Positions 2,280 to 27,677 of a DNA stretch of 32,311 bases are shown piece after piece (positions within the stretch are counted from its first letter, which is position 1; each line of letters begins with the position of its first letter). Origin of the DNA: a bacterium (GTDB lineage: Bacteria; CLD3; SB21); the NCBI GenBank assembly GCA_019695335.1, contig JAIBAF010000041.1, positions 1 through 32,311 on the forward strand. The letters are read 5' to 3'. The position numbers and the translations under genes are program-made. The notes under the pieces were generated by a model that was given only the letters and a program-made list of their open reading frames with translations, was not told the origin of the DNA and did no database searches.

Positions 2280-5200
2280 TTACTGTTTTTTTGCAAGATA
2301 TTGATTGAAATATCGAAAAAACTGATCCGTGTCTATTAATTTTTTTTTGCCGTATTGCAAAGAGGGGAGTTGCAGTTCGATTACCGTACCATTCAGATGA
2401 TCAATTGATAAAATGGCTCCTATACTTTCTGCCCGCGCTTTCATATTTCTTGTCCCATGTCCCGTTGATTCTTTTGATATCTTTATGCCAACGCCGTTGT
2501 CTTTTATTTGCATGATAAATGAATCTTTTTTCCATTGTAATTGCGTTTCGACTTTGGTTGCCCCGGAATGTTTAACGATGTTTGTAATGGCCTCTTTAAA
2601 GATCAAATAAATAACTTGCCGTATTTGAGGAGCGCTAGGCATCTGCCGGTCACCTTGAATATTCATTTTGAATTCAATATCAAGCGGCCCAAGCATACGG
2701 TGGGCAAATTCGCTCATCCTATTGACTAAACTTTCAAAATGGTCATTTCTGGCATCAATCGACCATACAACATCGCTCATTGCCTGAACAACTTCACGTG
2801 TCAAGCCCTCAATTTGACTCAACACATTCACTTTATCTGCCATAGGAATGCCTGTTCGCAGTAAACCTGAATAAACTGAAATATTAGTCAATGTCGAGCC
2901 GACGTCGTCATGTAGATCGCTTGCAATCTTTGCTCTTAATCTTTCGATCTCAAGAAATCGTTGGATACGTGAACGGTACATAAGCCAAACGGTTCCTATT
3001 ATAATCGTAAACATCAATCCTTTAAACCATAGTGTCTGCCAAAATGCTGGATGTACCCGGATCATCATGGAAGTTCCCGCTTCATTCCAAATACCGTCGC
3101 TGTTAGATCCCTTTACGTAAAGGGTATAATCACCAGGTTCCAAATTAGTATAAGTGGCAATCCGGTGTCGGGAGTCACTGAAAATCCACTCTTCATCGAA
3201 TCCTTCCAGCTTGTAAGCATATTGATTTACGGACGGAGTTGAATAATCAAGAGATGAAAACTCAAATGAAATGACATATTCTTCGTGAGACAAATCCACT
3301 TGTGCCGGAAATCCGGGTCGAAGCCGTTGAATAGACCTTTCCTTATTGAGGACTTTAAGTGACGTTAGAACAACCGGGGACATTTTGGTTTTATTTCGAA
3401 TGCTATCTGGATGAAAAAACTGTAAAGCCTTCGATGGATCCGAAATAAATTTTTCCATCTGAAGCTCTAAGAAATGCATCGTTATTGAATTCTTTACTGG
3501 ATAAACCGTCTCCCGTACTATATTGATGATACGATCCTGTGAACATATCGAAACACAACACGCCATCTTTTGAACTCAGCCACAATGAATGATGCCCATC
3601 CCAAGCCATTCCCTCAAAGTGATTACTGGATAAATCTCTTCCGGTTAGATAAACCCTAAACGAATTCTGTATCGGATCGAATTTATTTAAGCCCCAATTG
3701 GTTGCTAACCATAGGTATCCGGAGGAATCTTCGAAGATCGCCCTGACAAAATTATTGCTGATAGAAGAAGTGTTATCAGAATGGATGTATTTTTTAAAAG
3801 TTTTAGATGTACGATCAAATAAATTTAATCCTCCACCTTCGGTTCCAATCCATATCGAGCCTTTTCGATCTTCATAGACAAAATGAATAAAATCGGCTCT
3901 GAGGCTGGAACTGTCCGCCAACGTAAATCTTTCAAATTTTTTTTCTTTTCGGTCGAAAATATTCAGCCCGCCTCCGTATGTTCCAACCCAAATCATACCT
4001 GAACGATCCTCATATACTTCCTGAATTTGGTTGAGGCTGATGGAAAAACTATCTGATGGATTAAAGGTATATTGTTCCACATCAAGATTTCCAAGCCAAA
4101 AGGAGCCCTCTGTATCTTTGTATATGGTAAAAATATTTGAGAATCGGCGAAGAAATTGAGGCGCTTTCTGGAAATTTTCGTTTTTAGAATCAAAAATATT
4201 GACGCTCCCACCTAAAGTGCCGATCCAAATAATACCGGACTTGTCTTCACAGAAAGAAGTAATACTATTGCTGTTCAGCCATTGAGATTTTGTAATATCT
4301 TTTTTGAAGGATGTAAACTTTCTGTCCAATACTAATTTATTAACACCGCCGTCGCTACAACCGACCCACACGATATCATCCGCACTGAGCAAGCTGAAGA
4401 CACGATCAGTACTTAAACTCTTTAAATCGTAAGGATTATTTCTGACACGTGTGAAACGTTTGGTCGATAAATCGAATACGTTTAAGCCATCACTATACGT
4501 TCCAATCCAGAGACGATTATCATCCAATATCATAGATCTAATGTTATTATTGCTTAGACTATTGGAATCAGCAGGATCGTTACGGTAGTTATGGAAACGG
4601 TTGTTTTCCGGATCAAACTGGCTAAGTCCGTTCCATGTGGCAATCCAAAGATTGCTGTTACGGTCTTCAGTTATTACTCGAACTCTGTTGCCCGCCAAAC
4701 TGTTAGGATTACTGGGATCGGGAAAGTAATTCTTAAAAGTATGCGTTTGTCGATCAAATTTGCTCAACCCGTTCCAAGTTCCCACCCAAAGCTGCCCTTT
4801 AGAATCCTCACAAAGAGCACGTATTCGTCTACCACCGGAGAAAGTTGTATCTATGCTGTTGGGAGGGTAGTGTGCAAAACGGTTAGTTTCTCTGTCCCAG
4901 ATGTCAAGTCCGCCGTTTTCAGTGCCAATGTACAATTTTCCATCGCGACACTCTTTAATCGTAAGCACACATTGTCACTAATACTGTGTTCGTCGGATGG
5001 ATCGTGCAGATAGCGGGTAAATTTTTCCGTATTTCGATCGAAACTGCACAGGCCATAGTCTGTACAAACCCATATCAAACCGTACTGATCTTCATAAATA
5101 GCGCTAATGTAGTCGTTAGAAATGGATGTAGAATCCGACGGATCCGATAAAAACACACGAAACTGGTATCCATCGTAACGATTGAGGCCATGCTGAGTGC

Positions 5201-5357
5201 CAATCCATATAAAACCCTCACTGTCTTTGAACATGCACAGTATGGTATTTTGTGATAAACCTTCATCTATAGTTAGGTGCTCAAAAAGAAATTGTTGAGA
5301 CCATAAATCTTGAGAAATAAAAATAATGATCATTCCAAAACAAATCAGACGCTTCAT
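2280..5357 (-). pseudogene. Sensor histidine kinase (Reg_prop propeller, Y_Y_Y, HisKA_3), broken by two frameshifts
   Basis: Three overlapping open frames (5357-4851, 4968-3403, 3566-2280) join into one protein of about 1025 residues. Residues 1-20 look like a signal peptide (SQDLWSQ). A long series of repeats of the type S-I/L-S-x-N-x-V-x-x-I-x-E-D...WIGT forms the periplasmic Reg_prop propeller. A Y_Y_Y domain (YKLEGFDEEW) follows, then a membrane helix near residues 780-795, the HisKA_3 box DLHDDVGST (His about 816), and a HATPase with N-box KEAITN (Asn about 926) and DNGVGI. Around 4971 the repeat spacing calls for one base more than is present. At the A run 3414-3419 (T run on the coding strand) there is one base too many, where ...GFTVF should run into HPDSIRN. 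The errors cancel, so first and last parts share a frame. Either a real pseudogene or two sequencing errors. No response regulator gene is adjacent. Confidence 0.85.
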
Positions 5358-25936: not shown

Positions 25937-25968
25937 ACATCTCCTGAATTTTAGTTATAAAATACAAA

Positions 25969-25990
25969 AGGTAATCCGTACAGATTACCT
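25969..25990 (-). terminator. Rho-independent terminator after the aldehyde dehydrogenase gene
   Basis: An 8-bp stem (AGGTAATC with GATTACCT) and six-base loop is followed on the minus strand by TTTGTATTTTATAAC. It lies 28 bases past the stop of the aldehyde dehydrogenase (26019) and ahead of the CNNM/CorC gene, so the latter likely has its own promoter. Confidence 0.7.
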
Positions 25991-26018
25991 CTGAAAAATA
26001 ATTCCTGTTTAATTTTTG

Positions 26019-27566
26019 TTATCGCCGGCTTTTGATAAATTCATCAACGATTTTATTAATTTCTTTTTCAGAAAGTCCTTTTGAGCCGAACGTTACAGAT
26101 GTTTCGGTTTTTTTAACGGTAGTTTTTTTAGGCCGGGAATCGAAAGCCGGAATATTTTTTTTCGGCGAGGTTTCGGAATGTGAAGAAGAAACTGAAGCCT
26201 TACCGTGAACGAGCGACGACGTAAACGGGCGAATTTCAAAAGCCAGGCGTTTGATATTGATCAAGTGGTTTGGCATGATATTGTCAGTTGTAATCGATCC
26301 GCCGAGCGTACCCGGGCCTAATGTCATCGATGGCGCTACACCGGTTGTATAACCGACGGCGCCCAGAGTCGCGACCGTATTGACGCAAATCCGGAAAGCC
26401 GGTTTCTCAAGCCCGAATTTCATAATCACATCCTGATTGGTCGAATGAATCGACATCGTGTGGCCGATACCGCCAAAGTTAAGAATTTTGATACACAACT
26501 CGCATCCGGCTTCCCATCCATCGACAAAAAACATGGCTAAAACCGGCGATAATTTTTCAGCCGAAAGCGGATCGGATTTTCCAACTTCTTTACAGGGGAC
26601 GACCAGGATCGTCGTGTTCTCAGGAACAGACAATCCGGCTTTTTGTGCAATTATATGAGCCGGAAGGCCAATTATTTCAGTATTGAGTCGGCCGGTCGGA
26701 AACATGAGCTTTTGCAATTTAGCTTTTTCATCGTCATTGCAGACGTAGGCACGGTTATTTTTTAATTCCGTCAGAACCTGCTCTTTGAGTGACATATCGG
26801 CAACCAATGAATTTTCCGAAGAGCACAATAATCCGTAATCAAAACATTTACCGGCAACAATATCAGCAACGGCCTTTTTTACATTCGCCGTTTTTTCAAT
26901 GAAAGCCGGCACATTGCCGGAACCGACTCCTAGTGCGGGCTTGCCGGAACTGTATGCTTCACGGACAATGTTGGGGCCGCCTGTCGCTAGAATGACGGAA
27001 GTTTCCGGCGCTTTCATTAACGCTTGGGTTCCTTCGAGCGTCGGATGTTCAATATAGGTGATTAATCCGTGAGGCGCGCCATTCCACTCTGCTGCTTTGC
27101 GAAGAATTTCAGCTGCTTCAACCGTGCACTTGGCCGCTCTCGGATGCGGCGCAATGGCAATACCATTACCGGATTTGAGCGTGATCAAAATTTTGTACAT
27201 CACGGTTGACGTCGGATTGGTCGTCGGAATAATTGCCGCGACGACGCCCATCGGTACGGCAATTTCATATAATTTCCGTTTTTCATCGTGATGGATAATC
27301 CCGACAGTTTTCATATCTTTGATGTAATCGTAGACGTCACGTGTTCCGAATTGGTTCTTTACAATTTTGTCTTCATAGCGGCCCATCCGTGTTTCTTCGG
27401 CAGCCATTTTGGCCAATCGGTCTGCTGCCTCAAAACCGGCATCAGCCATAGCTTTGACGATTTTGTCAACCTGTGCTTGCGAAAATTTGGCAAACTCAAG
27501 CTGAGCCGCTTTCGCCTTACGCACGGCATCGCGTGCTTCCTGTATTGCGAGAAGATCCTTGTCCAT
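26019..27566 (-). CDS. CoA-acylating aldehyde dehydrogenase with C-terminal encapsulation-peptide-like tail
   Basis: A 515-residue enzyme converting an aldehyde plus CoA and NAD to acyl-CoA, or the reverse. It closely resembles the dehydrogenase half of Adh[11 protein letters not shown] (112-121), [25 protein letters not shown], catalytic Cys248 in [10 protein letters not shown], and SPVLAMF. The start at 27566 ([10 protein letters not shown]) is chosen over an upstream in-frame TTG at 27623, which would add 19 unlikely residues. After the catalytic fold comes a Ser/Thr/Lys/Pro-rich linker (454-496), then an amphipathic helix, [15 protein letters not shown] (498-512). This linker-helix plan is that of bacterial microcompartment encapsulation peptides. 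No shell protein gene is in the window. It lies after a terminator, so it has its own promoter. Confidence 0.88.
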
Positions 27567-27644
27567 ATTGTTTGGAATGATTAAATAACTCGTCAAAAAA
27601 CTGGGTTCAATATAGAAATTCAAACGGTGAGTATCAATAAAAAT

Positions 27645-27677
27645 AAGGCTGTTCGACCATAAGTGCCGAACAGCCTT
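27645..27677 (-). terminator. Rho-independent terminator of the fadJ-containing operon
   Basis: Perfect 11-bp arms (AAGGCTGTTCG and CGAACAGCCTT) flank an 11-base loop. On the minus strand the hairpin is followed by ATTTTTATT. It begins 17 bases after the stop of the 54-codon gene (27695) and should end the transcript that comes from fadJ and perhaps genes farther upstream. Confidence 0.85.

Follow-up and report, generated by a model that had tools for sequence, protein, structure and literature searches.

An aldehyde dehydrogenase tail that is very probably an address tag for a bacterial protein organelle with unlinked shell and partner genes

The C-terminal tail of the acylating aldehyde dehydrogenase (AldDH) analysed here very probably serves as an address tag and would direct the enzyme into a bacterial protein organelle, a microcompartment whose shell and partner genes lie elsewhere in the genome. 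Taking the parts together, we hold with good confidence that the gene encodes the core AldDH of a compartment of the fragmented (FRAG) kind, that its tail is an encapsulation peptide, and that the aldehyde would most likely come from helix-bearing aldolases. This reading draws on sequences and their conservation, on co-occurrence and gene neighbourhoods in other phyla, and on a predicted linker and helix, from which we infer the targeting, the substrates and the order of the pathway.

FRAG compartments are spread over a wide range of uncultured phyla, and since no operon reveals their cargo, their substrate is obscure. Address tags offer an alternative route: here, starting from the tag of a single enzyme, we reached shell genes and two candidate aldolases at other sites in the genome, and with them a hypothesis open to laboratory testing, namely that the substrate is deoxyribose-phosphate plus a second sugar phosphate. 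Both aldolases are likely candidates for aldehyde-forming partners, and such partners are absent from the FRAG organelles described in the open-licence literature.

The window gene encodes an acylating aldehyde dehydrogenase

The window, that is, the whole 32,311-nucleotide stretch that was analysed, is one entire contig (C41) of a draft genome of 3.76 Mb in 130 contigs (G000, here called the source genome). On its minus strand, positions 26019..27566 encode an acylating, CoA-dependent AldDH of 515 residues with a C-terminal linker and helix. The protein matches PF00171 (E 1.3e-27), and its top model in NCBIfam is TIGR02518 (acetylating acetaldehyde dehydrogenase), although the score of 578 bits does not reach the cut-off of 620.1. 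The nearest solved structure is also that of an acetylating acetaldehyde dehydrogenase (5j78, E 8.8e-146, covering residues 2-450), and the fold ends near residue 445. Cys248 (codon 26823..26825, minus strand) is invariant in alignments of 10 and 37 sequences and occupies what we take, from what is generally known of acylating AldDHs, to be the catalytic-cysteine position. The ATG at 27566 (MDKDLL), which is kept in six same-family relatives, is a likelier start than a TTG further upstream at 27623, and the open reading frame is genuine.

Its neighbours are a FadJ-like gene on one side and a CNNM/CBS gene on the other, and both recur in other family members as far as the flanks reach. A terminator-like hairpin (27645..27677, minus strand; 13-pair stem and T-run) separates it from the FadJ-like gene upstream, a second one (25967..25992, minus strand; 11-pair stem and T-run) lies downstream, and a promoter-like site, TTGATA-17-TATATT, sits just 5' of the gene (27609..27637, minus strand), recognised by its consensus match alone (10/12 positions). 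Hairpins on both sides together with the promoter-like site suggest that the AldDH gene is probably transcribed alone, as a solo unit. Elsewhere in the window, three overlapping open reading frames in different frames (2280-5357, minus strand) resemble a single propeller-type sensor histidine kinase with two frameshifts.

The tail is conserved beyond a drifting linker

The fold is followed by a flexible linker of ~52 residues (about 446-497; 26076..26231, minus strand), rich in Ser, Thr, Lys and Pro and containing the motif PAFDSRPKK, and then by the putative encapsulation peptide, which makes up the last 18 residues (498-515; 26022..26075, minus strand). In an AlphaFold2 model based on a 37-sequence alignment the core is confident, residues 461-497 have a pLDDT below 50, and residues 500-514 are predicted to form a helix with a pLDDT of ~86. 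The original prediction, of an acylating AldDH with a Ser/Thr/Lys/Pro-rich linker and a final amphipathic segment, is thereby confirmed, as is its expectation of a helix. Two structural features of encapsulation peptides were found, namely an amphipathic helix of 15-20 residues at the end of the protein and a flexible linker to the enzyme, the latter marked by low pLDDT, fast evolution and indels between family members.

Among seven family genomes, mean identity is 84% in the core, 47% in the linker and 71% in the tail, and the corresponding values of pN/pS are 0.15, 0.57 and 0.24. The helix is therefore retained while the linker drifts, and purifying selection acts on the tail. Tails ending with the consensus YGxGxSExEIxKIIxEF are also found in AldDHs of Ignavibacteria, KSB1 and a genome from another phylum (G059), at an overall identity of 50-56%. 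The hydrophobic moment of the tail, 0.68, is matched by 3.5% of shuffles; amphipathicity by itself is modest evidence, and the case for the tail is carried by conservation.

When 15 genomes were searched with a profile of the tail, the AldDH was the sole match in each (E 1e-11 to 3e-7). No further protein sharing this tail emerged, the next matches having E values of 0.026 or more; among these weaker matches, the two that were read, an FtsZ-linker match on contig C45 and a match on contig C35 of G063, are both internal to other proteins. In the linkers of most Ignavibacteria AldDHs (L068-L078) we observed another conserved motif, IEERLRARAGNP or a close variant, in mid-linker.

Homologous AdhE halves form filaments, and the helix could pack against another subunit. 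The tail would then be a scaffold or oligomerisation element, for instance an AdhE-like filament contact, instead of a shell-targeting one, a possibility that the original prediction had itself raised. However, the preceding 37 residues are predicted to be disordered and, unlike an interface, change rapidly and carry indels; the 5j78 alignment ends at residue 450; and the AldDH family is tied to shell genes, as described below. We consider this alternative highly improbable and, on the predicted disorder and the evolution of the linker, set the oligomer contact aside in favour of an encapsulation peptide.

Shell genes lie on other contigs and accompany the enzyme across genomes

A search of the source genome for PF00936 and PF03319 recovered both families. 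Six shell genes lie on four contigs other than that of the AldDH: a tandem of two BMC-H genes (PF00936) on C56, plus four BMC-P genes (PF03319), of which two form a pair on C9 and the others are on C45 and C26. The genes surrounding them are unrelated. Cargo and shell are thus encoded apart, as the original prediction had proposed, and the scenario that it had named as fatal, a genome devoid of shell proteins, does not apply. All seven family members retain intact shell genes. The shell-family search found no BMC-T gene in the source assembly, which is rated 100% complete. Tandem-domain BMC-T genes were found in G002, G003, G004 and G006, and not in G000, G001 or G005.

In a survey of 60 relatives, which are non-independent samples, a relative of the AldDH was present in 19/19 genomes with BMC-H/T shells versus 1/41 without them (Fisher 1e-14), the more distant AldDHs counted there being ordinary BMC AldDHs at ~30% identity. 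Among homologous AldDH loci from named genomes, 60/80 have shell genes no more than 6 kb away, and in Gemmatimonadetes the genes stand in a row: BMC-H, BMC-H, AldDH. The 20 loci without shell genes inside 6 kb include most of those from Ignavibacteria and KSB1. PF00936 was nevertheless present in each of the 20 genomes checked (19 without a shell gene within 6 kb and one with a Gemmatimonadetes locus with adjacent shells), and the twentieth shell-less locus (L067, from G006) was covered by the survey of relatives. Every genome checked that has an AldDH tail of this kind has shell genes. Conservation of the tail, its co-occurrence with shells, and AldDHs adjoining shell genes in other phyla support the earlier description of the tail as shaped like an encapsulation peptide.

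The scattered genes resemble fragmented microcompartments

FRAG microcompartments, described by Sutter et al. 2021, have shell genes at up to six sites and a BMC-P triplet (PMC8217296). Their hosts are Ignavibacteriae, Gemmatimonadetes, Planctomycetes and candidate phyla, their AldDH is unlinked, and no signature (aldehyde-forming) enzyme is obvious in the types published so far (PMC8217296). The source genome, with shell genes at several unlinked places (four contigs), a BMC-P triplet and an unlinked AldDH, appears from its gene content to fit these microcompartments in their testable defining features. Unlike the published types, it has two proposed partner aldolases with encapsulation-peptide-like (EP-like) ends, and a fourth BMC-P group. 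The BMC-P groups P1, P2 and P3, defined by best hits, are each present in G000, G003, G061, G063, G020, G059 and G067, and the fourth, P4, in G000, G003 and G059; a BMC-P tree of seven genomes is consistent with these groups and has many weak forks.

The scattering could be an artefact of assembly or binning, the source genome being a draft in 130 contigs. However, the GC content of the contigs is uniform (0.41-0.44), and a single contig of G003 holds both the AldDH gene and a BMC-P gene, at a distance of 125 kb. In the closed Ignavibacterium chromosome G061 (CP070637) the AldDH is found at 2.14 Mb, BMC-H at 1.84 Mb, BMC-T at 1.45 Mb and BMC-P at 1.01/1.11 Mb, the exception to this wide spacing being a tandem BMC-P pair ~100 kb from the third BMC-P gene. 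With AldDH and shell genes hundreds of kb apart on a closed chromosome the scattering is therefore biological, and the probability that it reflects draft assembly, which this chromosome rules out, is negligible. Shell genes likewise lie at several unlinked sites in the single-contig genome G020.

The enzyme itself is like the type I BMC AldDHs (IPR013357/TIGR02518) in being an acylating AldDH for which TIGR02518 is the top curated family, in its linker and C-terminal amphipathic helix, and in having homologs in BMC loci (60/80 as above). It is unlike them in that its gene is solitary, outside any BMC operon, and in that it scores below the TIGR02518 cut-off (578 bits against 620). Type I AldDHs have been reported to carry C-terminal encapsulation peptides (PMC8217296), and with respect to these the original claim that linker plus helix follows a known plan holds. 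Its comparison with PduP stands by analogy only, since in PduP/EutE-type enzymes the encapsulation peptide is N-terminal whereas the tail described here is C-terminal.

Two aldolases with additional ends are candidate partners

Partner enzymes were sought family by family, and further ones may exist beyond these searches. The search of the source genome for signature enzymes found a DeoC and a class II aldolase, both with extra ends. DeoC, encoded on C49 (L270:2394-3302), matches TIGR00126 at 283 bits, above the equivalog cut-off of 117.3, and has an 80-residue N-terminal extension that begins with MDQHTEKFINDQVDRILQSLKEV and continues into a Cys-rich segment. The gene is flanked by fbp-like and threonine-aldolase-like genes, and the 6 kb examined on C49 contain no shell gene. 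Across the family, DeoC extensions have 6-8 Cys between the EP-like helix and the enzyme.

The class II aldolase (PF00596, FucA/OtnC-like; C44, L269:1505-2323) has its EP-like helix at the C-terminus, where a segment with four conserved cysteines is followed by SGEEDLIRSVIEKIIRES; none of the curated substrate models scored above cut-off against it. The pattern NPGCxxC...CxGxDC was observed between enzyme and helix in 7/7 family class II aldolases.

Among genomes that have DeoC, extensions alignable to that of the source genome occur in 11/16 shell-bearing versus 0/18 shell-less genomes; the same test by family, which is the fairer of the two, relatives being non-independent, gives 6/10 versus 0/18 (p 0.0006). 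In G059 and in the KSB1 genome G067, a DeoC gene extended in this way lies directly next to a P3-group BMC-P gene. Also in KSB1, the gene of a class II aldolase that ends in a helix overlaps with a BMC-H gene, itself located after a BMC-P triplet, and the AldDH gene is followed by a PduL-like gene both in KSB1 (L081) and in G059. Parts that are scattered in the source genome thus adjoin shell genes or each other in other genomes.

The tail could be an encapsulation peptide and the aldehyde could still come from some other enzyme, the helices of DeoC and the class II aldolase being unrelated decorations. This would accord with the lack of a known signature enzyme in published FRAG types (PMC8217296) and with G061, where the AldDH tail and scattered shell genes occur together with class II aldolases without a C-terminal helix, and where there is no matching DeoC. 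The two aldolases therefore cannot be the FRAG signature everywhere, and the signature enzyme may differ between phyla. The AldDH tail profile, moreover, leaves the aldolase helices indistinguishable from background (E about 0.7-1.9), so that the similarity of the DeoC N-terminus to the AldDH helix, the greatest among 206 protein termini sampled from the source genome, counts as supportive only. Against this, DeoC extensions of this type are confined to shell-bearing genomes in our sample, and KSB1 and G059 have genes for EP-like DeoC and class II aldolase immediately beside shell genes. We regard a different source of the aldehyde as rather unlikely, and keep the two aldolases as the preferred partners.

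Each aldolase has a counterpart in a known system. In sugar phosphate utilization (SPU) microcompartments, as would be the case here, a DeoC-type aldolase supplies acetaldehyde to an acylating AldDH; SPU loci, however, combine DeoC and RpiB with shell genes, whereas DeoC here, on C49, is unlinked to shells. PVM/ACI microcompartments likewise have a class II (PF00596) aldolase, and for ACI an EP-like helix at its C-terminus has been reported. Unlike theirs, the parts described here share no common locus, and the aldolase has a conserved four-cysteine segment ahead of the helix.

A proposed pathway and the question of cofactor recycling

In the pathway that we propose, the tail helix would attach the AldDH to the shell's inner surface, or would drive condensation of the cargo ahead of shell closure. 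The shell would consist of six proteins, two BMC-H and four BMC-P, whose genes lie on the four other contigs. Inside the organelle, DeoC would cleave deoxyribose-5-phosphate into acetaldehyde and glyceraldehyde-3-phosphate, the class II aldolase would produce a second aldehyde, perhaps from a second sugar phosphate, and the AldDH, using NAD+ and CoA, would convert aldehyde to acyl-CoA.

A PduL-like protein (C24:4097-4375; L153:1177-1950; minus strand) matches PF06130 at 31.2 bits against a cut-off of 25 bits. Where its KSB1 homolog has RHIHMN and DFHIDVDEA it reads RTLFLN and YCILSKEEA, and so is without the metal-binding His motifs of PduL (RHIHM, DxHID). Judged by these residues, this phosphotransacylase-like protein looks catalytically dead, and it is possibly a dead enzyme retained as a core protein. 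An Fe-type alcohol dehydrogenase is present in G003, whereas the source genome gave no more than a sub-threshold match. No EutB-type ammonia lyase was matched among the six genomes searched, and no EutB-like or EutG-like enzyme was found in the source genome at 1e-5. With a PduL-like protein without His motifs and no Fe-type alcohol dehydrogenase above threshold, the proposed pathway does not account for the recycling of CoA and NAD+.

Such losses, together with the missing BMC-T in G000, G001 and G005, might indicate that the tail is a relic of a compartment decaying in this lineage. The intact shell genes in 7/7 family members and the purifying selection on the tail argue against it, making a relic quite improbable, and we retain the encapsulation peptide as the preferred reading. 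Only tentatively do we extend this to a joint reading of the FRAG compartments here and in KSB1, G059 and G020, which would be two-aldolase sugar-phosphate organelles with DeoC and the class II aldolase both helix-tagged; the Cys-rich segments seen in the family of the source genome would bind metal or form disulfides controlling loading, and the PduL relative of this family would be a dead core protein.

The C-terminus of the PduL-like protein (LITEAHVWKAIRAKKKIWVPKNARLTPAAKDLGN) aligns to the N-terminal ends of EutT and EutQ from E. coli. A EutT/EutQ-like module, FVCEDDVRxA...GRKxxIGERTIVTPAARDLGE, was also observed at the end of Acidobacteria AldDHs (L082, L104, L107, L109, L122, L137 and L142), in place of a simple helix. 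Judging from its sequence, this module is possibly a second type of targeting tail, and the same AldDH genes have a BMC-H gene immediately upstream.
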